Shown: piece by piece, positions 38,902 to 62,603 of the stretch | How the letters are laid out: each line of letters opens with the position of its first letter | How positions within the stretch are numbered: the first letter of the stretch is position 1 | Source of the DNA: Paraburkholderia sp. PGU19 | Lineage (GTDB): Bacteria; Pseudomonadota; Gammaproteobacteria; Burkholderiales; Burkholderiaceae | Reading direction: 5' to 3' | DNA: 64,000 bases | Assembly (NCBI RefSeq): GCF_013426915.1 | Contig: NZ_AP023181.1 | Coordinates: 248,001-312,000 of the forward strand | The notes under the pieces: model-generated | The model's database searches: none | Seen by the model: the letters and a program-made list of their open reading frames with translations, nothing else | What the model was told of the DNA's origin: nothing | Translations under genes and position numbers: made by a program

Positions 38902-39522
38902 TCAGAGCTTTGGAGCCTTCCCTAAACCCAGTTTTTCCATTGCCTCATGAGCGTCAATCACCATCGTAGCGATTTCCCCTACCGTGACCCGGAGGCTTGT
39001 CGCGCGTGAGCGCATGTGCTCGTAGGCTTCATTCTCACTGAGCCGATGGGCATCCATCAGAATCCGTATCGCCTTCTCGATATGGCGTCGCGCCTTGATT
39101 GCTTCCTCGAGCTTGCCAATTTTGTGGTGAAGTCGCTGTTGATAGCCGGAGGAGGCGCGTGCCAGCACCAGCGTGCTCAGTATCCCGCTAGAGCGATATG
39201 GTTTCGTGATCACGCCATGCGCCTGGGTATCAACGAGCAGTCGTAAAGCCGTCGGATTTTCGTAATCGGACAAAGCAATGAGCGTCGCTTCGGTGTCTAC
39301 TGAACTCCAGTTGCCCGCGCTGCGAAGCTCAGGGCCCACGAGGAAGAAAATCACGTCAGCGTCAACCGGCAATTGCGCTGGAAATGGCCAGACGGTTCGT
39401 ACGGGGCAGCCAATCCGGCGCAACTGCTCTTCCAGGACGCCACGATCCTCCCCTGGCGGATGGATCACGACGACGCGCAGCGTGCGCAGGTCGTCAAATA
39501 GACGCCGCACACTGGTATTCAT
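38902..39522 (-). CDS. amiR: AmiR-like ANTAR-domain RNA-binding antiterminator
   Basis: 206 residues. The first 130 residues are a pseudo-receiver domain without an obvious phosphorylation site (RVVVIHPPGEDRGVLEEQLR, VDADVIFFLVGPELRSAG). A coiled coil follows (YQQRLHHKIGKLEEAIKARR), then the ANTAR helix bundle HIEKAIRILMDAHRLSENEA to RATSLRVTVGEIATMVIDAH. The same layout is known from Pseudomonas AmiR, which binds nascent leader RNA and prevents termination when released by AmiC. Its ATG overlaps the amiC stop (ATGA). It is the last gene of the amide operon; the candidate target is the leader at 47853-47992. Confidence 0.92.
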   Translation of the reverse strand: MNTSVRRLFDDLRTLRVVVIHPPGEDRGVLEEQLRRIGCPVRTVWPFPAQLPVDADVIFFLVGPELRSAGNWSSVDTEATLIALSDYENPTALRLLVDTQAHGVITKPYRSSGILSTLVLARASSGYQQRLHHKIGKLEEAIKARRHIEKAIRILMDAHRLSENEAYEHMRSRATSLRVTVGEIATMVIDAHEAMEKLGLGKAPKL

Positions 39523-40757
39523 GCTGGTTCTCCGTCGAGCCAGAACTCCGTGAAGCCGTACGAGGTCAGATAGGGGTCCGGTTTGACCGGGCTACTGCCT
39601 TCCCATACGACGTCGAACGCGCCATCCGGTCGACAGACGGCAATGCGCGGCGTCAGGATGGCGTGATTATTCTCCGGATCGATCCTGAGCGGTCCCTCGG
39701 GTGAATCGAACTCGACTTCGCGGACCGCCTCCACCAGTTTGGCGGTATCAAGACTTCCGGTGCGCGCAAGGGCGAGAGCGAACAGGTGCACCTGGTTGTA
39801 CGCCATCTCGGACCACATACTGGCCGGTTGCTCTCCGAAGCGCGCCTGCCATGATTTCAGGAAGTGACTATTGCGCTCGTTGCCCAGCGTATTGAAGTAG
39901 CTGGCTGAAACGATATGGCCACCACACAACTCCGCGCCAATCATTCGCGTTTCGCCCTCGGTCATAGTCAGACTTGCAATCGGGATGCGGGCGGGATCGA
40001 TACCGTGTTCTCGGTAGAGCTTGTAGAAGACACGCGCTCCCCGACCGATCAGGGTCGAGAAAACCACGTCCGGTTCGACGGCTTTGATTTCCCGCACGAC
40101 ATCCTCCAGTGCGGAGGGATCGGCGTCGCTGGGCAGATACACTTCTTCCACAATTTCTCCGCCGTGTTCCTCGACCATGTCACGCATGATCCGGTTCGAT
40201 TCCCGAGGATAAATATAGTCGGCGCCGATGAGAAAAAAGCGCTTGCCCCGGTTGTGAAGCAGGTACGCAGCCAGTTGCATGCTGTTCTGGTTCGGTACTG
40301 CGCCCGTATAGATGACGTTCGGCGAATATTCGAATCCTTCGTAGATTGAGCAGTACCACAGCAGCGCATTCTTACGCTCGATCACCGGCAGCACCGCCTT
40401 TCGACTCGACGACGTCGAACATCCAAAAATCACAGTTACGTCATCTTCCTGCAACATGCGCGTGGCGAGTCTGCGATATTCTTCGGGGTCGCTTTTCGGG
40501 TCGTATGCGACCGGATCGAGCAACCGCCCATCGACGCCGCGAGCAGCGTTGATTTCTTCTATTGCGAGGACAGTACCAAAGAAATGCTCAGATTCGGTTG
40601 CTGAGGTCACACCCGTTCGCGAGTAGAGGACGCCGATTCGCCAGCCATCATTGTGCTGGCTGTCCTGTGCTTCGGTCGTGTCTGCCCGGTGTTTGCTGTT
40701 AGCCGCCAGTTCTGCGGCACGCACTGCCGAATCGTCGTGTGAACTCCCGATGGTCAT
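39519..40757 (-). CDS. amiC: AmiC-like amide-sensing negative regulator (cytoplasmic type I binding-protein fold)
   Basis: 412 residues from the ATG at 40757 (cacggagc upstream). The body has the two-lobed fold of urea/amide-binding proteins: IGVLYSRTGVTSATESEHFF, GCSTSSSRKAVLPVIERKNA, YCSIYEGFEYSPNVIYTGAV and FLIGADYIYPRESNRIMRDM. There is no signal peptide; the first 50 residues are polar, so the protein stays in the cytoplasm, as AmiC does. In Pseudomonas the amide-free form sequesters AmiR. The gene follows the amidase gene after about 160 bp containing a small inverted repeat (CGCCCGG / CCGGGCG). Confidence 0.9.
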   Translation of the reverse strand: MTIGSSHDDSAVRAAELAANSKHRADTTEAQDSQHNDGWRIGVLYSRTGVTSATESEHFFGTVLAIEEINAARGVDGRLLDPVAYDPKSDPEEYRRLATRMLQEDDVTVIFGCSTSSSRKAVLPVIERKNALLWYCSIYEGFEYSPNVIYTGAVPNQNSMQLAAYLLHNRGKRFFLIGADYIYPRESNRIMRDMVEEHGGEIVEEVYLPSDADPSALEDVVREIKAVEPDVVFSTLIGRGARVFYKLYREHGIDPARIPIASLTMTEGETRMIGAELCGGHIVSASYFNTLGNERNSHFLKSWQARFGEQPASMWSEMAYNQVHLFALALARTGSLDTAKLVEAVREVEFDSPEGPLRIDPENNHAILTPRIAVCRPDGAFDVVWEGSSPVKPDPYLTSYGFTEFWLDGEPA

Positions 40758-40920
40758 GGTATTGCTCCGTGCATAATTTGAAGATCCCCGCTCATGTGCC
40801 ACGTCATGCCGGCCCCGCACAGGTTACGCCTCTTCCGCCCGGTGTTGACTAACGCCGGGCGTTCTGGCCGTCGCGTATCGATCACTGATGGGTCTCGCTG
40901 TCGCAGCGCCTCGCGCGTCC

Positions 40921-42219
40921 CTACTTTGAAGGATGATCATCCGTGAACACAGCGATCGCCTGCTCAACGAACGCGGCGGCGTCGAGGCATCGTGCGTCCT
41001 CCCACGGACGGCCGATAACCTGCACACCGACGGGACCGCCGCGTGTGCCCCACAGCCCGGGAACGTTCACGCACGGACATCCAAGCAAGGTCCAGTTGCG
41101 ATTGAATGCTGGATCGCCGGTTGAACCCAGCCCGTCTGGCGCTTCATCGGGCGCGCTCGGCGTCAGCAACGCGGAGACGCCGTCGAAAAGCTCGGACAGC
41201 TTGCCCTTCGCCTCTTCCATCAGCAAACACGCGTTGGCGTAAGTTACCGTGTCAATATCGGCTGCCCGGTTGAGAAACCCGGCAAGCTTGGGCGAAAGAT
41301 CGGCCCGGTGATGATCGTACTCGTATCCCAGCGCCCGCCAGGCCTCGTAACTCTGAATCATGTCGTGCGCTTTGATCATGTCCGCCATCCACGAACTGAA
41401 GCGAATCCGCCGCACCCGGCCGCCAGCGCGTTCAATCGCCCGCACGGCGGTGTCAAGCACGGCACTCGCGTTTTCCGACGGGGCGGTCCACGGATAGTTC
41501 TCAGGGACGCCGAACACCGGAATGGCTGTCGAGGCGTTCACCGCGAGCTGGCGACCTGACAGAACCTGGGCCAGGTACGCCACGTCAGTCACGCCGGCAG
41601 CAAACAGGCCGACGGTATCAAAGGACCACGAAAAGCATTTCATGCCAACGGTGGGCAACATGCCGAGAGTCGGCTTGTAACCGGCAATCCCGCAAAACGA
41701 TGCCGGACGGATCGTCGAGCCGCCGGTTTGGGTACCAATCGCGTACGGAGCCATGCCGGCCGCCACCGCGGCGGCCGAACCTGAAGAGGATCCACCGGCC
41801 GTTCGGCTCATGTCACAAGGGTTACGCGTCACGGTCGGCGCCATGTAGGCGAACTCGCTGGTCACCGTCTTGCCGATGACGACACCGCCGTTTCGGCGCA
41901 ACTGCGTAACGATCGCGGCATCGGATCTGGGCTGGTAACCCTCGTAGATAGGTGAGCCATAGCAGGTCACCAAATCGACTGAGTCGAAAATATCCTTCAC
42001 CGCTATTGGTAAACCTGCGAGCGGCCCCTTAGCCGCTGTTGCTTCAGCGATCGCGGCCTCCTGTCGGGTGATCGCAGTCATGGCTCGAACTTGTGGATCG
42101 ATTTCCTCGATCCGCGCAAGGGCGTCCAGAATGATGCTGTTGCGTTCCGTCGGATCGTTACCGATTCGCTTGAGAAGATTCAATCCCGAGACGGGACGAT
42201 AGATGGAATTTGCATTCAT
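40921..42219 (-). CDS. Amidase-signature-family amidohydrolase
   Basis: 432 residues from the ATG at 42219; no good ribosome site is visible, and translation may be coupled to the ATPase gene ending 26 bp upstream. The Ser-cisSer-Lys triad is complete: Lys in GLPIAVKDIFDS, cis-Ser in TAGGSSSGSAAAVAAGMAP, and nucleophile Ser in GTQTGGSTIRPASFCGIAGY. The end, NVPGLWGTRGGPVGVQVIGR, is characteristic. It hydrolyses an amide in the cytoplasm; the exact substrate is unknown. It probably works with the operon's CN hydrolase, for example nitrile or diamide to acid in two steps (inference). Confidence 0.9.
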   Translation of the reverse strand: MNANSIYRPVSGLNLLKRIGNDPTERNSIILDALARIEEIDPQVRAMTAITRQEAAIAEATAAKGPLAGLPIAVKDIFDSVDLVTCYGSPIYEGYQPRSDAAIVTQLRRNGGVVIGKTVTSEFAYMAPTVTRNPCDMSRTAGGSSSGSAAAVAAGMAPYAIGTQTGGSTIRPASFCGIAGYKPTLGMLPTVGMKCFSWSFDTVGLFAAGVTDVAYLAQVLSGRQLAVNASTAIPVFGVPENYPWTAPSENASAVLDTAVRAIERAGGRVRRIRFSSWMADMIKAHDMIQSYEAWRALGYEYDHHRADLSPKLAGFLNRAADIDTVTYANACLLMEEAKGKLSELFDGVSALLTPSAPDEAPDGLGSTGDPAFNRNWTLLGCPCVNVPGLWGTRGGPVGVQVIGRPWEDARCLDAAAFVEQAIAVFTDDHPSK

Positions 42220-42244
42220 CAGATTGTGGTCATTGTGGTGTGCT

Positions 42245-42952
42245 TTATACGCGCAGGTGTTCAAAAATCGAACCTGCGGCCCTTTCATCCTTGGCATTTC
42301 CGTGATCGACAATCTCGCCCTGCTTCAGCACCGAATAGCGGTCGACGACCTTCAGCGCGAACGCAACGTTCTGCTCGACAAGCAGGATCGTCGTACCGTG
42401 GCGGCTACGTTCCCATAGCAAAGCTTCCGCCAGGCGATCAATCACCGACGGTTGCAAGCCTTCGGTTATCTCATCAAGCAGGATGATCGAAGGACGCATC
42501 ATCAGCGCACGGGCGACCAGCAGCATCTTCTGTTCACCGCCGGACAGCGTGCCGGCGTACTGTTTAAGACGGCTCTTGAATACCGGAAAGATCGGCTCGA
42601 TTTCGGCGAAGCGCTCATCAAAAACCGATACCTTCTGGAGGCCGAGGCGCAGATTGTCACGAATCGTCAGATCCTGAAACAACGCATGTTCCTGCGGCGC
42701 ATAGGCAATCCCTGACCGCGCGATCCGGTGCGGTGGCAGCCTGGTGATGTCCAGTCCATTCAGACGGACCGAGCCGGCTTTCTTTGGCAGGTAGCCCATG
42801 ATCGTCTTGAGCAATGTGGTCTTTCCCATCCCGTTCTTACCGAGCAGGGCGACAGCTTCGCCGCTCGATACAGTCATCGACAGCTTTCGAAGCACGACCG
42901 AGGCCTTGTATCCGCTCGTGACGTTCTGCAGGTCCAAAGCGATCTGGCTCAT
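42245..42952 (-). CDS. livF: LIV-type ABC transporter ATPase (LivF-like)
   Basis: 235 residues. Walker A LLGKNGMGKTTLLKTIMGYL, the LivF-specific AYAPQEHALFQDLTIRDNLR, signature LSGGEQKMLLVARALMMRP, Walker B IILLDEITEGLQPSVID, and H-loop LLVEQN. It starts four bases inside the end of the LivM-LivG gene (ATGA overlap), so the two ATPase domains are made in fixed ratio. It couples ATP hydrolysis to uptake of the amide-type solute. Confidence 0.93.
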   Translation of the reverse strand: MSQIALDLQNVTSGYKASVVLRKLSMTVSSGEAVALLGKNGMGKTTLLKTIMGYLPKKAGSVRLNGLDITRLPPHRIARSGIAYAPQEHALFQDLTIRDNLRLGLQKVSVFDERFAEIEPIFPVFKSRLKQYAGTLSGGEQKMLLVARALMMRPSIILLDEITEGLQPSVIDRLAEALLWERSRHGTTILLVEQNVAFALKVVDRYSVLKQGEIVDHGNAKDERAAGSIFEHLRV

Positions 42953-44811
42953 GATGCCTCCCCGTGTTTGGCGGTACCGTCACCTACGACAGGTTGGGCG
43001 GTGCCAGCATAGATCGTCTTGACGAGCTCTGAATCGACCACGTCATCGAAGCTGCCTTGCATCACAATTTTTCCCTGATGAAGGACCACGATGCGTGTGG
43101 CAATTTCGGCCACGAAATCGAGATCGTGTTCCACGAGCAGGCAGCAAAGCTGATATTCGTGTGCCAGTGCGGCGAGTACATGACCAATCTGCGTACGCTC
43201 AGTCTTGGTCAACCCCGCTGTCGGCTCGTCGAGCAGCACGATGCGCGGTTCCAGGGCAAGTACCATAGCAAGTTCGAGTGCCTGCTGTTCCCCGTGAGAC
43301 AGATCCTTCGCCACTGCGCCCAACTTCTCGTCAAGGCCGGTAGTGCGAATTACCGCCAACGCGTATGGCGGCAAGGCGAGCGTGTGTGAACGCTGGAAAA
43401 GTGAAGGCCGTTCGATAATCGTGCCTGCAATTCTCAGGCATTCCGCGACTGTGAGAGTGTCGAAGATGTTCGCATTCTGGAACTTTCTGCCCAGCCCAAA
43501 GTGTGCGCACCGGTCCGGCGGGAATTCTCCGATATCATTGCCGCACAGCACGACTGTTCCAGCAGACCGTTCGGCGCCATCGCTCATGCAGCGCATCAAC
43601 GTCGTCTTGCCTGCTCCGTTCGGACCGATCAGGCCGACCAGTTCACCGGCGTTGGCATGCAGATCGATACCCTGCAGTACCTTGAGGCTGCCGAATTGTT
43701 TCGCAACGTCGTGCATCTGCAATGCAGGTTCGGAGCGCGTCTGCCGATGATCAGCTCGAATCGCACGTTCGGCCAGTTCAACTTCAATCCTGTCGCCGGC
43801 CAGGCGGCGGAGGGGGTTGAGCAGCAACGGCACCAACCCTTGCGGCAGCAGGACGATCACCGCCACAAAAGCAGCACCGAGAATCAGTTGCCACGCGAAC
43901 GGCATGCTGCCACTGAGATAGGCTGTCACGACGTTGATCAGGAGCGCACCGATCACCGGTCCCCAGAGAGTTCCGCGGCCACCGAGAGCGACCCAGATGA
44001 TCAACTGGGTACCAAGGACAAAACCGGTCAGTTCCGGCGCAACCACGCCGCTAAATGATCCATAGCCAAACCCGGCGATACCGGCTACAACGGCGGCCAC
44101 AACCAGCAAGACGATCTTCACGAGTGAAGTGTTGATGCCAAGGTACGAGCAACGCGATTCATTGTCTCGAATGGCCACCAGCACGCGGCCACCATCGCTG
44201 CGTACGAAGAACCACGCAAGCGTCGCGATGAGGAGCAATCCAGTGCCGGCGATCCAATACCACGCCTGAAGCGACATATCGAATGTTTCGTAGCCAGTCA
44301 GGCCCGAACTGGAGCCAGTCCACTCACCGCCAGACAGAAGCAACTGGCTGAGCACGATTGGTAGCACGAGCGACATCACAGTGGCAAAGAATGGCGAGGC
44401 GCCACGATAAAATGATAGCCAGCCGAGCAACGCTGCGACCGCGGCGGCGACGAGGATGGCGGCGCCCAGTGCCAACGCAACGTAGCCGGGCGAGAAGCCG
44501 CCATGTGTGAACACGAGGCCCGCGGCATAGGCACCAATGCCGAAGAAGGCTGATTGCCCGAACGTCAGGTAACCCGTGTAGCCCCACAGGATGTCGACGC
44601 TCACCGCGACGATCGAGAAGAAGAACGCCTGGATCAGGACGTTCAGCAGATATGTGCCGAACAGAAACGGACCGACGGCCAGCAGCAGTACGGCCAATGC
44701 GCCGACCAGCAATATTGCGCGCGAATGTGTCTTTCGCCGACCGGGCAACTGATCCCCGCGATGCGAGGAATCGACGCCGACATGGGGCGGCGACATATTG
44801 ACTTTAGCCAT
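42949..44811 (-). CDS. LivM-LivG fusion: ABC permease joined to ATPase
   Basis: 620 residues from the ATG at 44811 (gaagggg upstream). Residues 1 to about 330 are a LivM-type permease with eight or so helices (GYTGYLTFGQSAFFGIGAYA, GFGYGSFSGVVAPELTGFVL, GGRGTLWGPVIGALLINVVT). A linker (RAIRADHRQTRSEPAL) leads to a LivG ATPase: Walker A LIGPNGAGKTTLMRCMSDG, FGLGRKFQNANIFDTLTVAE, signature LSHGEQQALELAMVLALEP, and Walker B IVLLDEPTAGLTKTE. The fusion is seen in some urea/amide transporters. It overlaps livH by 8 bp. Confidence 0.92.
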   Translation of the reverse strand: MAKVNMSPPHVGVDSSHRGDQLPGRRKTHSRAILLVGALAVLLLAVGPFLFGTYLLNVLIQAFFFSIVAVSVDILWGYTGYLTFGQSAFFGIGAYAAGLVFTHGGFSPGYVALALGAAILVAAAVAALLGWLSFYRGASPFFATVMSLVLPIVLSQLLLSGGEWTGSSSGLTGYETFDMSLQAWYWIAGTGLLLIATLAWFFVRSDGGRVLVAIRDNESRCSYLGINTSLVKIVLLVVAAVVAGIAGFGYGSFSGVVAPELTGFVLGTQLIIWVALGGRGTLWGPVIGALLINVVTAYLSGSMPFAWQLILGAAFVAVIVLLPQGLVPLLLNPLRRLAGDRIEVELAERAIRADHRQTRSEPALQMHDVAKQFGSLKVLQGIDLHANAGELVGLIGPNGAGKTTLMRCMSDGAERSAGTVVLCGNDIGEFPPDRCAHFGLGRKFQNANIFDTLTVAECLRIAGTIIERPSLFQRSHTLALPPYALAVIRTTGLDEKLGAVAKDLSHGEQQALELAMVLALEPRIVLLDEPTAGLTKTERTQIGHVLAALAHEYQLCCLLVEHDLDFVAEIATRIVVLHQGKIVMQGSFDDVVDSELVKTIYAGTAQPVVGDGTAKHGEAS

Positions 44812-45637
44812 GAGAAAACCCCTTCGGACGAACGCGCAGCGTAAGAGCGGCAAGCACTGCGATCGTCAAGCCACCGAGGACCGGACTGACAAAAGTGCTG
44901 ACCAGAACCTGGCATGCCCCGAACACCAGACACGTAACCAGAAGGCTGACCATCGAGTAGCCGGAAACCATGACCAGCATGAAGGCATTGACTAGCCACG
45001 GTAGACCCATGTTGGGATCGACGCTTGACAAGGGTGTAATCAGCGTGCCCGCAAGGGAACCAAGCGCTGCGCCCAGACTGAACGTGATGAAACGGATGCG
45101 CCCGGAATGAATGCCGAGACCCCGTGCGAGGTCCTCATTCATGATTACCGCACGTGTCTTGACGCCAAAGCGTGTGCCGGACAACAGCGCGGTGAGGACT
45201 GCGCACATTCCTAGCGCGATCGGAATAAGCAGCAGGCGATACGCGGAATAGTCCGTGCCGGCTATGGAGAATGCTCCCTTTAAAGGCGTTTCAACGAACT
45301 GGACCTCCCGGCCGAACATCATCACAATAACCTGCCCGATGACGATTCCCAGACCCCAGGTGGCAAGGATCGCATCAAGCGGGCGCTTATAAAGCGGGCG
45401 CACGATCATCTGCTCGACGAGCATGCCAACAGCGACGCCGACAGCAATTGCGAGCGGCACGCCAAACCATGGATTGAGCTTCAGTTGCGTGACCACATAG
45501 CTCGCGTACGCGCCCATCGTCAGCAGGCCGCCATGAGCAAAGTTGACGATTTTCATCACGCCGAAAATCATCATCAAACCAGCGGTCACGATGAACAATA
45601 CCGCCGCAGTCGTAAAAATATCTAGTCCTAGAACCAT
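44804..45637 (-). CDS. livH: LIV-type ABC transporter permease (LivH-like)
   Basis: 277 residues from the ATG at 45637 (ggagacgg upstream; an in-frame earlier start lacks a site). Helices include FTTAAVLFIVTAGLMMIFGV and the signature KIVNFAHGGLLTMGAYASYV. The cytoplasmic loop is AVIMNEDLARGLGIHSGRIR. It forms the channel with the LivM half of the next gene, and belongs to the urea/amide-like branch by its neighbours. Confidence 0.92.
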   Translation of the reverse strand: MVLGLDIFTTAAVLFIVTAGLMMIFGVMKIVNFAHGGLLTMGAYASYVVTQLKLNPWFGVPLAIAVGVAVGMLVEQMIVRPLYKRPLDAILATWGLGIVIGQVIVMMFGREVQFVETPLKGAFSIAGTDYSAYRLLLIPIALGMCAVLTALLSGTRFGVKTRAVIMNEDLARGLGIHSGRIRFITFSLGAALGSLAGTLITPLSSVDPNMGLPWLVNAFMLVMVSGYSMVSLLVTCLVFGACQVLVSTFVSPVLGGLTIAVLAALTLRVRPKGFSHG

Positions 45638-45713
45638 TTCCGTCTCCAGTCGCATCCGCCAGCGAGATGTACCACGCACATACAGCAGGCGGATGCCAAA
45701 TACTTGATCTCGA

Positions 45714-46877
45714 TTACTTGATGTTTGGGCACTGCGCCCCGGGATCGACGTCAGAAAAGGTTTGCAGGATCTTCACGGAGCCATCGGCCTGAATCTGCCC
45801 GAGGCGCATCGCCAGAGGCGTATGCCGGCTCTTGTCCATCGTTACCGCGCCGCGTGGACCTTCGAACGACACCTGGTCAAGTGCCTTGACCACCTTGCCC
45901 GGATCTGTCGAGCCTGCCTTCTCGACCGCCGCCTTATACAGGAAGAAGGCTTCGTATTGCGGCTCCGACAGCTCGTTGGGCGTCTTCACGTCCTTTCCGA
46001 ATCGTTTATCCATGGCCGTAAGAAATTTTTTGTTCGCGGACGTATCAATGCTCGTCAGATAGGACCCTGACATGTACGTGCCTGTGGCAACGTCGCCCAT
46101 GCTCTTCGCGGTGCCTTCGTCAATGGCGAGATTTCCGTACGGCAGCGTCATACCTGAACCCTTCAGTTGCTTGGCCAGCGCCACATTGGGCGCACCACCA
46201 GCTGTGGCGCTGATCAGCGCATCGGGATGAACGGCACGGATCTTCGAAAGAATAGGCGTCCAGTCGGTGCCGTCGATCGGCAGGTACTCTTCGCCGACAA
46301 CCTTGCCGCCATGTTGTTCTATATATTTCTTCGTGAACTCAAGCATGCCCCGTCCGAACGCGTAGTCGTTGCCGACCAGGTAGAAAGTCTTCGCTCCCTT
46401 GCTTTTGTTGAAATAGTCGACTACCGGTGCAACCTGTTGCTCCGGCACCCAGCCGTTGACATACATCCACGGACTGCACGACCGGCCTTCATAGAACGAC
46501 GTGTAGATAAAAGGCTTCTTGCCCCGCGCCACGATGGGTAGAGCTGCGTTGCGAGCGGCACTGGTTTCCATCGAGATGATCGCATCAACGTTCTTCTGGA
46601 ACACCAGCGTGTCGTAGGCCTTCTGCGCGCCGACAGCACCAGACTCGTCGTCCACGATCTCGAGCTGGACTTTGCGTCCCAGAATGCCGCCGGCGGCGTT
46701 GATCTCGTCGACCGCAAGATGCGATGACTGCACGACGGCAGGCGCGACCACGCTGTTGGCGCCGGACAAGCCAACCGCAACGCCGATCTTGATGGGCTCT
46801 GCGGCATATGTGGCTGCAGTAAGCGAGGCTACCGCTGCAACGGCGCCGACAAGGACTCGCTGTTTGAACGGATTCAT
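45714..46877 (-). CDS. LIV-type periplasmic substrate-binding protein of the amide transporter
   Basis: 387 residues from the ATG at 46877, with an excellent ribosome site (aaggagac). The signal peptide is NPFKQRVLVGAVAAVASLTA ending AATYAAE. The mature start PIKIGVAVGLSGANSVVAPA and the segment FIYTSFYEGRSCSPWMYVNG resemble urea- and amide-binding members of the type I fold, and share features with the cytoplasmic AmiC of the same operon. It captures the substrate for the LivHMGF transporter. A cytoplasmic sensor and a periplasmic receptor of the same fold in one operon suggest a common ligand class. Confidence 0.9.
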   Translation of the reverse strand: MNPFKQRVLVGAVAAVASLTAATYAAEPIKIGVAVGLSGANSVVAPAVVQSSHLAVDEINAAGGILGRKVQLEIVDDESGAVGAQKAYDTLVFQKNVDAIISMETSAARNAALPIVARGKKPFIYTSFYEGRSCSPWMYVNGWVPEQQVAPVVDYFNKSKGAKTFYLVGNDYAFGRGMLEFTKKYIEQHGGKVVGEEYLPIDGTDWTPILSKIRAVHPDALISATAGGAPNVALAKQLKGSGMTLPYGNLAIDEGTAKSMGDVATGTYMSGSYLTSIDTSANKKFLTAMDKRFGKDVKTPNELSEPQYEAFFLYKAAVEKAGSTDPGKVVKALDQVSFEGPRGAVTMDKSRHTPLAMRLGQIQADGSVKILQTFSDVDPGAQCPNIK

Positions 46878-46938
46878 GGTGTCTCCTTCACGTAAGGTCG
46901 GTTTGGTTTTCAGGATCATGCGGACGTCGCCGGATTGC

Positions 46939-47835
46939 TCACGGACGTGAGGAAGGCCAGCCAGTGCCCAGCATAGGGTCGTACACGTCCGAGCGCCGGT
47001 CGCGCAGCACGTGGTTAAAAGCGTTAAGCGTGCGTCCGGAACGGGTGCGATGCAGATTGATCGCCGCGTACAGAATTTCTTCGCTATCCTGACTGGCTGG
47101 TCCGGCCAGTGGCCAACCGTCAGCCCCCACGATCAGGCTTTGTCCGATGAACTGCTGCCCACGCTCGGTTCCGGTCCGATTTGCGCACGCAATCATCAGA
47201 CCGTTGCTATGTGCGGCAGCCATCGTGAGAGTGGTGGCCATCGCTGGGCGCTCTGCCAGTTGACCTGGCATGGGGACCCAGTTCGTCGGAACGCAGATGA
47301 TGTCGGCGCCTTGCGTGGCGGCCAGTCGGTACACCTCCGGAAACCATCCGTCGTAGCAGATGGCGATCGAGATCCGTCCGAGCGCTGTGCCGAACACTGG
47401 CACGCCGCCGTTACCCGGCTCGAAGAAGAGGTTTTCGTTGTTCCAGAGATGGAGCTTGCGGTACGTCCCGATGTGCCCCGACGGGCCGACGAAGACTGCC
47501 GAGTTGTAGAGTCGCCTGCCTTCGCGCTCTGCAATGCCCCCAACGATATGGATGCCAAGACGCTGAGCCGCGTCGGCCCAGATCCGCACGGTCTCGCCGT
47601 TCGGAAGGTCTTCGGCCAGGCCGAACGCTTCCTCGCGGTCCGCAAAGACATAGCCGGTGTTGACCAACTCAGGCAGGACCACGAGGGATGCGCCGCTTTG
47701 CGCAGCTTCCTCGATGTAACGGAGCGATTTAGCTACGTTTTCGCGCTTTTCGCCGACGCGAGGCTCCATCTGTACGCATGCCACAACGGGCTCATTAATG
47801 CTCCGAGGGGCAGGGTTGCACCGCAAGTCTTCCAA
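46939..47835 (-). CDS. Carbon-nitrogen hydrolase (nitrilase/aliphatic-amidase superfamily), first gene of the operon
   Basis: 298 residues from a TTG at 47835, selected because ggag lies seven bases before it and no ATG gives a full domain without crossing the upstream terminator. The Glu-Lys-Cys triad is intact: Glu in LVVLPELVNTGYVF, Lys in GTYRKLHLWNNEN, and Cys in ISIAICYDGWFPEVYRLAA. A fourth family residue (Glu) is likely in the AERPAMA region. The enzyme hydrolyses an amide or nitrile. It occupies the place of amiE in the Pseudomonas amide operon, directly behind a terminator-containing leader. Confidence 0.88.
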   Translation of the reverse strand: MEDLRCNPAPRSINEPVVACVQMEPRVGEKRENVAKSLRYIEEAAQSGASLVVLPELVNTGYVFADREEAFGLAEDLPNGETVRIWADAAQRLGIHIVGGIAEREGRRLYNSAVFVGPSGHIGTYRKLHLWNNENLFFEPGNGGVPVFGTALGRISIAICYDGWFPEVYRLAATQGADIICVPTNWVPMPGQLAERPAMATTLTMAAAHSNGLMIACANRTGTERGQQFIGQSLIVGADGWPLAGPASQDSEEILYAAINLHRTRSGRTLNAFNHVLRDRRSDVYDPMLGTGWPSSRP

Positions 47836-47852
47836 TTTCGTTCTCCAAAAGC

Positions 47853-47894
47853 AAAAAGCCCCCGAACCGGCGTTGGTACGCAAGTTCGGGGGCT
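47853..47894 (-). terminator. Intrinsic terminator inside the amide operon leader
   Basis: On the minus strand an 11-bp perfect stem, AGCCCCCGAAC / GTTCGGGGGCT, is followed directly by TTTTTGCTTTT. The end of the T-run lies only a few bases before the ribosome site of the TTG start at 47835, so this is a leader attenuator and not the end of another gene. Confidence 0.85.
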
Positions 47895-47954
47895 GCATAG
47901 CCTTCCATGTAGCGCGGCATCGTTGCCGCAGATTGCCAATGACGCCCGGCAATC
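47891..47954 (-). promoter_or_regulatory. Leader hairpins, candidate AmiR (ANTAR) target
   Basis: Three hairpins precede the terminator on the minus strand. H1 (47954-47931): stem GATTGCC / GGCAATC, extendable by two G-U pairs to leave a six-base loop. H2 (47929-47914): stem GCGGC / GCCGC with hexaloop AACGAT, having A at position 1 and G at position 4 as described for ANTAR-bound RNAs. H3 (47902-47891): GGC / GCC with loop TATGCA; its 3' arm overlaps the terminator's first bases, so H3 and the terminator exclude each other. H1 and H3 do not show the A1/G4 loop, so only H2 fits fully. Confidence 0.55.
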
Positions 47955-47963
47955 AATGTCGCA

Positions 47964-47992
47964 AATCTACGAGCCCCTCGTTAAGTCGTCAA
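47964..47992 (-). promoter_or_regulatory. Sigma-70-type promoter of the amide operon
   Basis: Minus strand: TTGACG (47992-47987), 17-base spacer, TAGATT (47969-47964). Transcription would begin around 47957, just before hairpin H1, giving a leader of roughly 120 bases up to the first start codon. Confidence 0.6.
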
Positions 47993-48373: not shown

Positions 48374-49525
48374 TCACTTCTCCACCACGCTGAGCAGCGC
48401 CTGCTTACCGTCGACGTACTTGTAAAGCGAAATCACGCCGTGCCGCAGATCGCCCTTCGAGTCGAATTGCGTCTGACCAAGCACGCCGTGGTAATCGGTG
48501 GCTGGCATCGCGGCGAGAATCTTCGCCGGTTCGGTGGATTTCGCACGCTTCATTGCATCGACGATGACGCCCACCGCGTCATACGCAAACGGCGAGTTCA
48601 GCACCGGCGCGTACCCGAAGCGCTTCTTGTAACGTTCGACGAAGGCCGGTCCTTCGGCCATTTTTAGCAGCGGTGCACCGGCTATCGAGCAGATCACGTT
48701 GTCGGCTGCATCGCCTGCGAGCTTGGCAAGATCGTCGGCACACAGGCCATCACCCGCCAGCACTTTCGCGGATATGCCGAGTTGCTTTGCCTGCTTCGCG
48801 AACGGGCCGCCCGTGCCATCGAGGCCGCCGTACATGATCACATCGGGCTTTTCGCCCTTGATCTTCGTGAGGATCGCGCGGAAATCGACGGCCTTGTCGG
48901 TGCTCGCATCGTGCGAAAGCACCGTGATGCCGTTCGCCTTCGCCTGCTTCTCGAACTCGACAGCGAGTCCCTGCCCATAAGCAGTCGAATCGTCGACAAT
49001 CGCTACCGTCTTCACCTTGAGTGTTTTCGCCGCGTAGTCGGCCAGCGTCGGACCCTGCTGCGCATCGGTGGCGACCACTCGGTACGCAGTCTTGAAACCC
49101 TGCAACGTGTACGCCGGATTCGTCGCGGACGGCGACACCTGCACGATGCCCGCGTCGTTATAGATCTTCGACGCGGGGATCGTCGAACCGGACTGCATGT
49201 GCCCAACCACTGCGACGACCTTGTCGTCAGCGAGTTTCTGCGCGACCTGCGTGGCCTGACGGGGATCGCCCGCATCGTCCTGGGCGTCGAATACCAGCGT
49301 GATCTTCCGCCCGCCGATCACGAGCCCTTTCTGGTTAATTTCCTCGATAGCGAGACGTGCGCCGTTCTCGGTGTCCTTGCCCAGATACGAAGCTGGCCCG
49401 GTCACGGGCGCGGCTTCGCCGATCTTTACCGTCTCGTCAGCCTCGGCGACGCCGGCTGCGACGATCGCCAACGTTCCCAATATGCCGACAGTCGCGACGC
49501 GACTCAAAGTTGTGATCTTGCTCAT
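48374..49525 (-). CDS. Branched-chain/amide amino acid ABC transporter binding protein (LivK-like)
   Basis: 383 residues; gggtgaag precedes the ATG. The signal peptide ends near GVAEADE. The mature start VKIGEAAPVTGPASYLGKDT and the hinge motifs VVGHMQSGSTIPASKIYNDA, QVSPSATNPAYT and VDDSTAYGQGLAVEFEKQAK are those of LivJ/LivK. No permease or ATPase adjoins, so it must use a transporter encoded elsewhere, or share the one at 42.2-45.6 kb. Its upstream region carries one copy of the 30-bp repeat shared with the asparaginase gene, so asparagine or a related amino acid is a plausible ligand. Confidence 0.9.
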   Translation of the reverse strand: MSKITTLSRVATVGILGTLAIVAAGVAEADETVKIGEAAPVTGPASYLGKDTENGARLAIEEINQKGLVIGGRKITLVFDAQDDAGDPRQATQVAQKLADDKVVAVVGHMQSGSTIPASKIYNDAGIVQVSPSATNPAYTLQGFKTAYRVVATDAQQGPTLADYAAKTLKVKTVAIVDDSTAYGQGLAVEFEKQAKANGITVLSHDASTDKAVDFRAILTKIKGEKPDVIMYGGLDGTGGPFAKQAKQLGISAKVLAGDGLCADDLAKLAGDAADNVICSIAGAPLLKMAEGPAFVERYKKRFGYAPVLNSPFAYDAVGVIVDAMKRAKSTEPAKILAAMPATDYHGVLGQTQFDSKGDLRHGVISLYKYVDGKQALLSVVEK

Positions 49526-49813: not shown

Positions 49814-50905
49814 ATGCCGACCGCTGCCCCTTCTTCGAACGTTTCCCCGCCCGTGGCGCAAACGGCACATGAGCTGGTCGAGCAGCTGGACGCGCTGCCG
49901 CGCACGCTTCAGACGCGCCCAAGCCGGTCCGAAGCGGAACTGAGCGTCGGCATCCTGCTATGGCCACGATTTCCCATGCTGTCGCTAGCGGGGTTATGCG
50001 ATGCACTGCGCCATGCAGCGGATCGCGGCGACCAGAGCCGACAGTTGCGCTGCCTGTGGACGATCATCGGCGTGCAAGGCGAGTCGGTCGAAGCAAGTTG
50101 CGGTATTCCCGTGCAGGTACAGTCCGCATTTCCGGATCTCGCGCAATTCGACTATCTGGTCGTGATCGGCGGCCTGTTGGCGGATCTCGATCACGTCGAC
50201 CGCCGCTCCTGGGACTATCTGAAACTGGCCGCTCAGGAGGGCATTCCGCTTGTCGGGATGTGCACTGGAAGCTTCGTACTGGCGCGAGCAGGTCTGATGG
50301 AAAATTACGTAGCCTGCGTGCACAGCTTCCATCTCGAAGACTACCGACGCATGTTTCCGGCGTTGCGCGTAATCACCCATGCGGACTATCTGATCGACGG
50401 CAACCGCATCACCTGTGCAGGCGGCATTTCCGTGGTCGAACTGGCCGCGCGCCTGATCAGCCTGCATTGCGGACCGGATCGCGCCTCGAAGGTGATTCAT
50501 CAGATGACGGTGAGCCGTCAAGGCGGCTCGTCGTTTGTCGAACGGCGTGCCGCGCTCGGCTATCTCTCCGTCGGCGACGCAACCGTGCGCCACGCAGTGC
50601 TGCTGATGGAAGAGAACCTCGAAGCGCCATTGAATATCGCCGTCATCGCGAAAATGATCGGCACCAGCGTCCGCAATCTCGAGCGCGCATTCATGGCGGA
50701 GATGGACACCTCGCCAAACGAGTTCTATCGACGCATGCGGCTGCGTTACGCACGCTGGCTGCTCGTCAATACGGCACGCAAAATCACCGACATCGCGTAC
50801 GAGTGTGGCTTCGCCGACTCGGCGCATTTCATTCGCGTATTTCGCGAAGCGTACGGGGTTACGCCGGGCAAACTGCGCGCGTCGCGAACCGCCGGGGTTG
50901 CCTGA
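49814..50905 (+). CDS. GlxA-type transcriptional regulator (DJ-1/PfpI plus AraC)
   Basis: 363 residues from the ATG at 49814. After a polar N-terminus of about 40 residues comes the DJ-1/PfpI-like domain (VGILLWPRFPMLSLAGLCDA, LVVIGGLLADLDHVDR, VGMCTGSFVLARAGL), with an intact MCTGS elbow. The C-terminal AraC domain has LNIAVIAKMIGTSVRNLERA and KITDIAYECGFADSAHFIRV. It lies between the livK-like gene (divergent) and the asparaginase gene (same direction), and is the obvious candidate to bind the two 30-bp sites flanking it. Confidence 0.92.
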   Translation: MPTAAPSSNVSPPVAQTAHELVEQLDALPRTLQTRPSRSEAELSVGILLWPRFPMLSLAGLCDALRHAADRGDQSRQLRCLWTIIGVQGESVEASCGIPVQVQSAFPDLAQFDYLVVIGGLLADLDHVDRRSWDYLKLAAQEGIPLVGMCTGSFVLARAGLMENYVACVHSFHLEDYRRMFPALRVITHADYLIDGNRITCAGGISVVELAARLISLHCGPDRASKVIHQMTVSRQGGSSFVERRAALGYLSVGDATVRHAVLLMEENLEAPLNIAVIAKMIGTSVRNLERAFMAEMDTSPNEFYRRMRLRYARWLLVNTARKITDIAYECGFADSAHFIRVFREAYGVTPGKLRASRTAGVA

Positions 50906-50991: not shown

Positions 50992-51122
50992 TTCTCCGCA
51001 TTGGGCCGCACTACAGTCCCGTCATCGGGTAAGCCACGCATCGCGTGGCACGCCTCCAACGCGAATCACACAAGAAAGCGAGTGCGTCAGCATGCGCCTT
51101 CCTCAAATCTGATCGAACCCGC

Positions 51123-52115
51123 ATGACCGCAAAGCCCAACATCCTGGTTATCGGCACCGGCGGCACGATTGCCGGCCAGGGCAAAGCCGCCATCAACACG
51201 TCCGCCTATCTGTGCTCGGTGCTCGGCATCGACGAGATTCTTGACACACTCCCTCAGGCCAGAGCGCTGGCCAATCTGCGCTCGGAGCAGTTATTGCAAA
51301 CCGGCTCTGAGAACTTCAATAACGAGCATCTGCTTGCAATCGGCAAGCGCGTTGCAGAAGTACTCGCACGGCAGGATATCGATGGCGTAGTGATCACACA
51401 CGGGACCGATACGATCGAGGAAACCGCCTACTTTCTGCATCTCACGCTCAAGAGTGCAAAACCGGTGGTCGTGGTCGGATCGATGCGCCCACCGTCGGCG
51501 ATGAGTTCCGATGCGTCGCTCAATCTTTACGATGCGATCGCGGTCGCAGCGCATCCATCCTCAAGCGGCATCGGAACGCTCGTTGTCGCGAACAGCGAGA
51601 TACATACCGCACGCGACGTCGTGAAGAGCAACAGCTTCAAGCTCGATGCGTTTCGCTCGCCCTATGGTGCGCTCGGCTGGGTGATCGAAGGCGTCCCGCA
51701 TTACTACCGCCGTCCGGCCCGGGCGCATACACTGGACACGCCGTGGTCGCCCGACCGTCTTTCCAGTTTGCCCAAGGTCGAGATTGTCTACGGATACGGC
51801 TCGCTGGAGTCCGATGCGGTTGAAGCCATTGCCGCTGACTCTCGCGGGCTGATCTTTGCGGGCACCGGCAACGGCAACATCGCCAGCCATCTGCTGCAGC
51901 CGCTGCGAGATGCCGCGCGGCGAGGTTTGCGAGTGGTTCGCGCATCCCGCACTGGGAACGGCATCATATTACGCAACGGTGCACAACCCGACGACGAATA
52001 CGGTTGGATCACCGTCGACGATCAGATCCCCCAGAAGGCTCGCCTTCTTCTCATGCTGGCGCTCACACAAGACGCGGACACGAACGCGTTGCAAGCGGTC
52101 TTCGAGCGCTACTAA
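51123..52115 (+). CDS. ansA: L-asparaginase
   Basis: 330 residues from the ATG at 51123; in-frame codons continue upstream to 51045 but do not resemble the family. Both catalytic threonine motifs are present: VIGTGGTIAGQGKAA near the N-terminus and VVITHGTDTIEETAYFLHLT. The cap residues SDGSxNL are represented by SSDASLNLYDAIAVA. There is no signal peptide, pointing to a cytoplasmic type I-like enzyme that splits asparagine to aspartate and ammonia. The ornithine cyclodeaminase homologue follows after 43 bp. A conserved 30-bp site lies upstream. Confidence 0.9.
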   Translation: MTAKPNILVIGTGGTIAGQGKAAINTSAYLCSVLGIDEILDTLPQARALANLRSEQLLQTGSENFNNEHLLAIGKRVAEVLARQDIDGVVITHGTDTIEETAYFLHLTLKSAKPVVVVGSMRPPSAMSSDASLNLYDAIAVAAHPSSSGIGTLVVANSEIHTARDVVKSNSFKLDAFRSPYGALGWVIEGVPHYYRRPARAHTLDTPWSPDRLSSLPKVEIVYGYGSLESDAVEAIAADSRGLIFAGTGNGNIASHLLQPLRDAARRGLRVVRASRTGNGIILRNGAQPDDEYGWITVDDQIPQKARLLLMLALTQDADTNALQAVFERY

Positions 52116-61812: not shown

Positions 61813-62603
61813 GTGTGTCACGAACGTAGGCGAGAGCCTGCGGTGCTGTACTGAAGATGGGAGCAGGCCTCCCGAAGTCGGCTTTCAGGAGCAGGCTTCA
61901 AACCGCCCGATGCTGCTGCGTTCAAAAGGCGCGGTGGTGAGCGATCGTGGAAAAGGCATCCTTTAAAGATGTCAGGTAGGTGTTGAGAAGATGAGCGAAA
62001 GCAAACCGTTCGACGACGCATCGTTAGACTGCTAAAGCGCTGTCAAAACTGGAGCCGGGAAAAAGCTTCAGGATCAGTCGGGACGCCACCTGATTACGGA
62101 CCCGATGGCAGCCGGTGTAAAGACGGCATGAGCTCAACACAGGCTTCAGTATGGAACGTGAGAACCTTGCTTCGGATGTTAAGAGAAATGACAAATGGCT
62201 GACACCATGAGGAAGAATATCGATGCCGAAGTGAGGGGCGGAGCTGCCCGTAGTAGTGTTGAAGCCCTTGTAATGAGGGTGGAGCGAAGGGGCAGCGTTA
62301 TCCGGTTGACGAACGTCGCCAACCTGCATTGCGGGGATGAGTGACATGACCTCAACAAAGCCGTACAGCATTGCAAAGCGGGTCGTGTGGGAAGCGTATC
62401 AGTTGGTGAGGGCCAACCGCGGCGCTGCGGGCGTGGATGATGAAACTATCGCCATGTTCGAGCAGAACCTCTCTGGAAATCTGTACAAGCTGTGGAACCG
62501 GATGTCGTCGGGGTCGTACTTCCCGCCACCGGTGAAGCAGGTAGAGATTCCGAAGGCCAAGGGCGGCACGAGAAAGCTGGGCATTCCGACGGCGATCTCA
62601 TAA
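61813..62603 (+). mobile_element. Group II intron, 5' part with truncated reverse transcriptase/maturase
   Basis: The intron probably begins at GTGTG (61813-61817). About 520 bases of non-coding sequence, structured as expected for intron RNA domains I-IV, precede the maturase start at about 62337-62346. The protein TKPYSIAKRVVWEAYQLVRA, NRGAAGVDDETIAMFEQNLS, YKLWNRMSSGSYFPPPVKQV and EIPKAKGGTRKLGIPTA is the LtrA-type N-terminus (RT-0 to RT-1). The match stops after GIPTA near 62598, where reverse transcriptases continue VADRIAQ. The RT active site YADD, maturase and intron 3' end are missing here, displaced by the recombinase-bearing element. Confidence 0.82.

Follow-up and report, generated by a model that had tools for sequence, protein, structure and literature searches.

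Probable Antitermination Control of the nit–Transporter–Amidase Operon

The leader RNA that precedes a nitrilase–transporter–amidase operon in the soil bacterium Paraburkholderia sp. PGU19 (minus strand, 47992–47853 of the 64-kb stretch of DNA analyzed, hereafter the window) is very probably an off-switch that is opened by the operon's own AmiR. AmiC-gated AmiR antitermination at a two-hairpin site (P1–P2) is predicted with high confidence to control the operon from nit to amiR. AmiR antitermination had been proposed in the initial annotation, and the sequence comparisons support it, by virtue of the AmiC and AmiR homologues encoded in the operon and a conserved, covarying two-hairpin site that overlaps the terminator.

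By the proposed mechanism, the leader transcribed from the promoter at 47992–47964 would fold by default into the terminator at 47894–47857, and transcription would stop before nit. On binding of a ligand by AmiC, AmiR would be released, as in Pseudomonas aeruginosa; AmiR would take P1 as P1 emerges and then hold P2, the 3′ arm of which forms the base of the terminator. Polymerase would thereby pass through the whole operon, amiC and amiR included, giving feedback through amiCR. The comparisons show the anatomy, conservation, and covariation of the leader, its single strong site in the genome, and its linkage with the cargo; AmiR binding, ligand gating, read-through, and amiCR feedback are inferred from these. 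The AmiC ligand is probably a small amide; judged from the malonamidase-like amidase, our best guess would be malonamate or a similar monoamide.

Genes of the Operon

The operon comprises nit, SBP, livH, livMG, livF, amidase, amiC, and amiR, in that order, over about nine kb of the minus strand. The nit gene (46939–47835) encodes a carbon–nitrogen hydrolase of the nitrilase superfamily (PF00795), with PH0642 and nitrilase chains as its best PDB matches (1j31, E = 1e-60). It is followed by genes for an ABC substrate-binding protein of urea/amide type (45714–46919; Peripla_BP_6, UrtA-like below cut-off), a LivH/UrtB-like permease (44804–45679; Pfam BPD_transp_2), a permease–ATPase fusion corresponding to LivM/UrtC plus LivG/UrtD (42949–44853; Pfam BPD_transp_2 and ATPase), and a LivF/UrtE-like ATPase (42245–42952; Pfam). 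Because the NCBIfam Urt models are matched by these components only below their cut-offs, the transporter substrate need not be urea. The amidase (40921–42312; PF01425) has malonamidase E2 as its best PDB match (1ock, E = 4e-94); its listed reading frame overlaps livF, and the real start is probably later.

The last two genes are amiC (39519–40820), a ligand sensor with P. aeruginosa AmiC as best PDB match (1pea, E = 1e-89), and amiR (38902–39522), an antiterminator with AmiR as best PDB match (E = 9e-28); these matches bear out the earlier statement that the operon ends in amiC–amiR. The two genes overlap by 4 nt, and the pair has the expected composition: an AmiR_N pseudo-receiver (PF21332, 122.5 bits) joined to an ANTAR domain (PF03861, 49.9 bits), and an AmiC-type sensor adjoining amiR. 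The window AmiR has Thr at the position of Met172, an RNA-contacting residue of EutV. A plasmid of Paraburkholderia hospita carries the operon at 97–98% nucleotide identity.

Several other features lie upstream of the leader. A second Peripla_BP_6 binding-protein gene (48374–49525, minus strand), about 380 bp before the promoter, would by this reading lie outside the leader's operon. Beyond it are a gene for an AraC-type regulator that is GbdR-like below cut-off (49814–50905, plus strand) and one for a type II asparaginase, above cut-off (51045–52115, plus strand), which is a second amide-nitrogen gene nearby. The sole Rfam match above gathering score in the window is a Group II intron D1–D4 (RF01999, 114.8 bits; 61859–61977, plus strand).

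Architecture of the Leader

The −35 element TTGACG (47987–47992) and the −10 element TAGATT (47964–47969), separated by 17 nt, read directly as a sigma-70-like promoter, from whose spacing transcription would be expected to start at about 47957. Hexamers and spacing agree with the initial annotation, and both hexamers are nearly invariant in 19 leaders (the window and 18 congeneric genomes, see below), with TTGAC identical and the −10 element conforming to TA(A/C/G)A(T/G)T.

Three hairpins follow, as originally drawn. The predicted fold of H1 (47931–47954) pairs GAUUGCC with GGCAAUC, and two wobble pairs extend the stem; it is a third hairpin that stands 0–1 nt from P1. P1 (47913–47930; formerly H2) has the stem GCGGC/GCCGC with an outer U–G pair and presents the canonical ANTAR loop AACGAU (47924–47919), with A at position 1 (A1) and G at position 4 (G4), exactly as first described. 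A linker (47903–47913), 11 nt long when the P1 stem is taken as 5 bp and 10 nt when it is taken as 6 bp, leads to P2 (47891–47902; formerly H3), GGC-UAUGCA-GCC, the loop of which has U1, G4, and A6. Each of the two hairpins thus has a stem of at least 3 bp (P1 5–7 bp, P2 3–4 bp) and a 6-nt span. The initial annotation allowed that the true two-hairpin site might differ from its drawing: the pair is indeed its H2 and H3, and its H1 proves to be an extra hairpin outside the pair. In P1 and P2 alike, loop positions 1 and 6 could form a base pair; the folding program closes this pair in P1, leaving a tetraloop.

The intrinsic terminator (47857–47894) consists of an 11-bp stem, AGCCCCCGAAC/GTTCGGGGGCT (arms 47894–47884 and 47867–47857), with an inner GCGT/ACGC hairpin and a run of five T residues (47853–47857), the one at 47857 being also paired in the stem. 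The earlier description of a strong terminator directly before the ribosome site of the first gene therefore holds for 47894–47853; the ribosome site GGAG occupies 47846–47843 and the TTG start of nit lies at 47835 (whole element 47833–47846). The overlap of P2 with the 5′ arm of the terminator, also noted initially, amounts to three bases (GCC, 47893–47891, inside the terminator stem), or four when U1–A6 is counted.

The predicted fold of the leader RNA is unusually stable (z = −5.4; none of 200 dinucleotide shuffles equally stable). In the pre-terminator transcript, P2 has a predicted pairing probability of about 0.33, in competition with a linker hairpin, and when P2 is forced a shortened terminator hairpin is left. 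P2 is thus weak by energy alone and would need protein. The match of P1 and P2, the linker, and the terminator overlap to the target type published for EutV, NasR, and AmiR counts in favor of the AmiR reading, as far as the available text of those reports describes that type. Counting against it are the short P2 stem of only 3–4 bp, the lack of A1 in its loop, and an AmiR without Met172.

Conservation Among Congeneric Leaders

AmiR was found at E ≤ 1e-15 in 44 of 146 genomes searched. The congeneric set consists of the window and 18 genomes with a full-length AmiR at least 80% identical; three loci with first-gene homologues and no leader upstream (L052–L054) were dropped from the congeneric count, and two genomes with only an amiR fragment (G020, G044) were left out. 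A nit homologue lies on the amiR contig, 5.9–7.5 kb away, in 17 of the 18 genomes, and on a separate contig in the remaining one (G060). The leader precedes nit in all 19 operons, and its layout of promoter, P1, P2, and terminator is kept throughout, as is the three-hairpin arrangement. The TTGAC motif, the −10 element, the P1 and P2 cores, and the terminator arms are near-invariant. A more distant congeneric operon (L055, AmiR 45% identical) also has a leader, in which the P2 span is 7 nt.

Within the genus, one outer P1 pair changes compensatorily, and H1 varies in sequence yet stays paired, with double changes in five of six consensus pairs and 91.5% of cells paired (18 distinct congeneric rows). 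The combined covariation score of H1, P1, and P2 was equaled in none of 500 shuffles; P2 shows no variation inside the genus and so contributes no covariation evidence there. The initial annotation had tied its reading to covariation of the hairpins among relatives, and in the aligned leaders of orthologous operons the stems do covary (0/500 shuffles), leaving that reading standing.

The linker is 10 or 12 nt long in the 19 leaders (counted from a 6-bp P1), within the 5–12 nt of the Enterococcus faecalis eut genes. Loop position 4 is G in both P1 and P2 of every leader, and position 1 is A in all 19 P1 loops and U in all 19 P2 loops, so that A1 is present in one loop of the pair and not in both. 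The initial annotation was right that neither H1 nor H3 has the complete A1/G4 loop: H3 combines G4 with U1, and no hexaloop is conserved in H1 across the 19 leaders.

H1 was considered as a common part of the leaders of all Thr172-type AmiR proteins, and this was rejected, as the hairpin stands out against mononucleotide shuffles in only some of them. In these shuffles p was at most 0.023 in the window, L075 (the orthologous leader of Paraburkholderia xenovorans LB400), L094, L099, L100, L101, and L110, 0.05 in L105, and about 0.09–0.12 in L088, L092, L098, and L109; H1 did not stand out in L103, L104, L107, L108, L111, L187, and L055. In L106 and L262 a hairpin adjoining P1 was read by eye. 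The leaders L099 and L100 contain three tandem hexaloop hairpins, with an H1 loop (AACAGC or AACATC) of the AACA type, like that of P1, which suggests that H1 may descend from a third AmiR site.

Distribution of the Site and Position of the Leader

Genome contigs were scanned for AmiR, and 80 loci were found. A P1–P2 pair of the window type is present in 32 of the 35 nearest relatives (L063–L097); the three exceptions are one contig that ends too early (L077) and two loci without cargo genes (L090, L096). L077 is without a leader because its contig starts 2.8 kb upstream, and the leader of that genome is on the L040 contig. Among the remaining loci, a hairpin-plus-terminator scan and a relaxed scan found leaders in part and none in many; the relaxed scan, run on 38 further loci, yielded 21 matches, some of them clearly spurious, vs. 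2.7 in block-shuffled sequence. Departures from the standard pair include L109, with P1 present and a P2 span of 5 nt, L098, with a P2 span of 7 nt as in L055, and L106, in which P1 carries a mismatch.

The ANTAR covariance search suggested at the outset gave no ANTAR-type match with Rfam 15, either in the 64-kb window or in 18 related loci, and for this reason a covariance model of our own was built. Other Rfam matches, among them RsmW (18 bits vs. a cut-off of 52) and the rnk leader, were at chance level, and across the 18 related loci no match fell on the leader. The model rests on an alignment of 35 distinct leaders from the hairpin-plus-terminator scan, leaving out L090, L096, L132, and L142; the leaders L098–L101, L103, L105, and L106 are also outside it. 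Compensatory changes occur in 6 of 10 pairs of this alignment, the 1–6 pair of the P1 loop included, and none of 500 shuffles reached the covariation score. Since the rows were selected for paired stems and G4, part of the pairing percentage reflects that choice, in which the loop 1–6 pair played no role. In a search of the 11.2-Mb genome to which the window belongs, the model scores the leader at 56.4 bits (E = 1.9e-10), with the next match at E = 0.29: there is one strong site genome-wide, though the window sequence itself is in the model.

The operon genes were checked over 28 loci, 22 of them with Thr172-type AmiR. Nineteen of these 22 have nit, SBP, livH, livMG, and livF; the three that do not are L102, a contig of 5.7 kb; L090, in which 20.6 kb contain no cargo gene; and L096, whose 10 kb of upstream sequence lack nit, SBP, and livH. 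For L090 and L096 no leader was found either. The leader sits before the first cargo gene in either of two operon orders. The Burkholderiaceae among the 19 have amiCR last in the operon, with the leader in front of nit. An order with amiCR at the head, the leader following amiR and preceding the first cargo gene, is found in Bradyrhizobium, Aureimonas, a Rhizobium plasmid, a Comamonas plasmid, and several MAGs. There are exceptions to this split by family, such as L187, which belongs to the family of the window and has amiCR first. The transporter–amidase operon was seen in genomes of Paraburkholderia, Caballeronia, Trinickia, Variovorax, and Bradyrhizobium, and on Rhizobium and Comamonas plasmids.

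Two loci have further features of their own. In L187, leaders at 1679 and 10352 (plus strand), about 8.7 kb apart, flank amiR, with the P1 loop AGGGCU in both and the P2 loops UACGUA and UAGGAA; two operons are possibly under one AmiR here. In L263, a Comamonas antarctica plasmid typed as conjugative, the amiCR–transporter–nit block lies beside urease genes.

Alternative Readings of the Leader

The antiterminator might be the longer linker hairpin (GCUACAU..AUGCAGC) instead of P2, with AmiR reading P1 alone. This hairpin is the stabler pre-terminator fold predicted in the window, and EutV binds single isolated hexaloops, according to the available portion of PMC8934654. Against it, in the congeneric alignment, which was not chosen for P2, the linker helix is paired in 80.9% of cells without compensatory change and P2, also invariant, in 100%; in the wider set, the rows of which were picked for the P2 stem, the values are 70.7 and 96.4%. 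Scored alignment-free, the best linker helix falls to 5–6 pairs in 8 of the 19 leaders. We therefore regard the linker hairpin as unlikely to be the antiterminator.

Ribosome-coupled attenuation, in which translation of a leader peptide rather than AmiR overcomes the terminator, is very improbable: the frame from TTG 47952 is open into nit, but direct reading reveals no Shine–Dalgarno sequence before this TTG, and the linker of 10 vs. 12 nt and the variable H1 lengths leave no common frame in the congeneric leaders.

We give equally little credence to a ligand-binding riboswitch, such as the two-hairpin guanidine-II class, the loops of which are ACGR; the leader has two small hairpins, a P1 core (ACGA) like ACGR, and nitrogen genes downstream, but its P2 core is AUGC, AUGU, or ACGU, no guanidine family is matched at E ≤ 10 (Rfam; window leader and 18 related loci), and the site travels with amiCR and the cargo.

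Loop Variation and AmiR Residues 172 and 153

With AmiR antitermination at P1–P2 as the preferred reading, the departure of the P2 loop from A1 can be set beside the proteins. Among distinct AmiR/leader combinations, 16 of the 18 readable P2 loops that accompany Thr172-type AmiR have U1, and positions 1 and 6 are pairable in 16 of 18; of the 17 that accompany Met172-type AmiR, 16 have A1, and positions 1 and 6 are pairable in one (L142). For P1, the 1–6 pair is possible in 17 of 20 combinations with Thr172 and 7 of 17 with Met172. Several of the loops were read by eye, and L098 and L055 (7 nt) and L109 (5 nt) are outside the P2 counts. As a repeated independent association, the link between Thr172 and P2 U1 is strong by these counts but was rejected on the tree, where Thr172 forms a single clade with one change (support 99); the link is thus one event and no proof of causation.

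The literature gives these residues some context. As far as the available text of each report goes, Met172 is essential in EutV and has been suggested to exclude tetraloops (PMC8934654), and mutation of A1 weakened EutV binding (PMC3369931). A1 and G4 are more than 50% conserved in Actinobacteria, one point variation being allowed (PMC8164766, in the part available); accordingly, the A1 feature is not absolute, and a loop that lacks A1 is in itself nothing new.

With positions 1 and 6 paired, the loops are tetraloop-like, and the predicted fold shows P1 in this form. Position 4 of P1 is A in L098–L101 (residue 153 A, A, G, and A, respectively) and in L177, L206, and L242–L245 (residue 153 C), so that a small residue 153 together with a readable P1 goes with A4 in 10 of 10 loci, across the Thr and Met clades; four loci with a small residue 153 (L102, L189, L199, L246) have their P1 outside this count. 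Counterexamples are L141, with A4 and Val153, and L103 and L105, with U4 and Val153, and P2 loops with A4 are also found where residue 153 is Met or Ile (L117, L119, L126, L123, L190, L194, L202). On the tree, two to three of three supported independent pairs go the same way and none the opposite way, which is not significant in so small a test. Residue 153 lies one helical turn from the G4-contacting Lys149. The paralogous loci L242–L245 (residue 153 Cys) each contain a pair of leader-like sites, one per strand, about 226–254 bp apart, with A at P2 position 4 of both sites; P1 was read for one site each.

We tentatively suggest, while considering it doubtful, that AmiR proteins are split into RNA-reading dialects, in which the Thr172 clade would read 1–6-paired loops and a small residue 153 would independently go with A4. 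As part of the same doubtful suggestion, A–U or C–G pairs in P1 and U–A pairs in P2 would leave tetraloops presenting the third base, of the kind proposed to be excluded by the Met172 plug of EutV. Such dialects, if true, would insulate several AmiR switches within one cell.

Comparison With Known Systems

The mechanism itself is known; what is new is the operon predicted to be under such control and the P2 loop variant. In a search of titles and abstract openings among openly available papers, no paper was found on AmiR control of a nit–transporter–amidase operon or on 1–6-paired ANTAR loops. Matches in Burkholderia are reported in the accessible part of PMC3369931 and may include the window leader; an amiCR pair beside an amide transporter is already in print (PMC13209695, from the text available); and PMC9409073, as far as its accessible text goes, concerns NasT and has no bearing on the leader. 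From the present analysis come a proposed mode of control and a proposed class of substrate for a transporter–amidase operon. The leader is also an AmiR target that is naturally rich in variants of both protein and RNA, and some of the genomes carry paralogous systems as well. The current picture of ANTAR recognition, based largely on EutV (A1, G4, Met172), thereby becomes directly testable.

In the available descriptions, an ANTAR target comprises two hexaloop hairpins with A1 and G4, a short linker, and a P2 that overlaps the terminator (PMC3369931, PMC7496416, PMC8934654). The amiE leader of P. aeruginosa resembles the present one in the AmiC and AmiR homologues of the operon and in a leader whose two hairpins and terminator precede the first gene (PMC3369931, available part). 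It differs in its cargo, which here is nit, a urea/amide-type ABC transporter, and a malonamidase-like amidase rather than amiE, and in P2, which here has U1 vs. A1 in Ramesh 2012 (PMC3369931), where the amiE loop is known to us by description only. A P. aeruginosa-type amiE leader was also sought via plasmids to serve as a positive control, and all 193 of 193 records were below 60% identity to P. aeruginosa AmiR (15 at 34–35% among the matches listed). The plasmid-borne acetamidase operon of Klebsiella sp. KOS9 likewise has amiC, amiR, an amide hydrolase, and ABC transporter subunits, and AmiR antitermination has been proposed for it; unlike here, the hydrolase is AmiE, the transporter as described is of another cluster, and no leader RNA is mentioned in the accessible text (PMC13209695).

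The EutV-dependent eut leaders of E. faecalis share the dual hexaloops, G4, a linker of 5–12 nt, and a P2 over the terminator (PMC3369931, PMC8934654, parts available). EutV, however, carries Met172 and is a response regulator controlled by phosphorylation, whereas the present AmiR would be gated by AmiC and has Thr at that position, with U1 in P2. NasR–nasF of Klebsiella oxytoca has a similar two-hairpin target with a terminal C:G pair, but nitrate is sensed by a domain of NasR itself, and SELEX favors A1 and G4 in both loops (PMC7496416, as accessible). Within the genus, paralogous AmiR systems (L177, L178, L206, L242–L245) also combine AmiR-type proteins with dual-hexaloop leaders; these differ from the window in having Met at position 172 and P2 loops with A1 (ACAGAA) or with A1 and A4 (AACAGA, AGCAGA, AATAGA).
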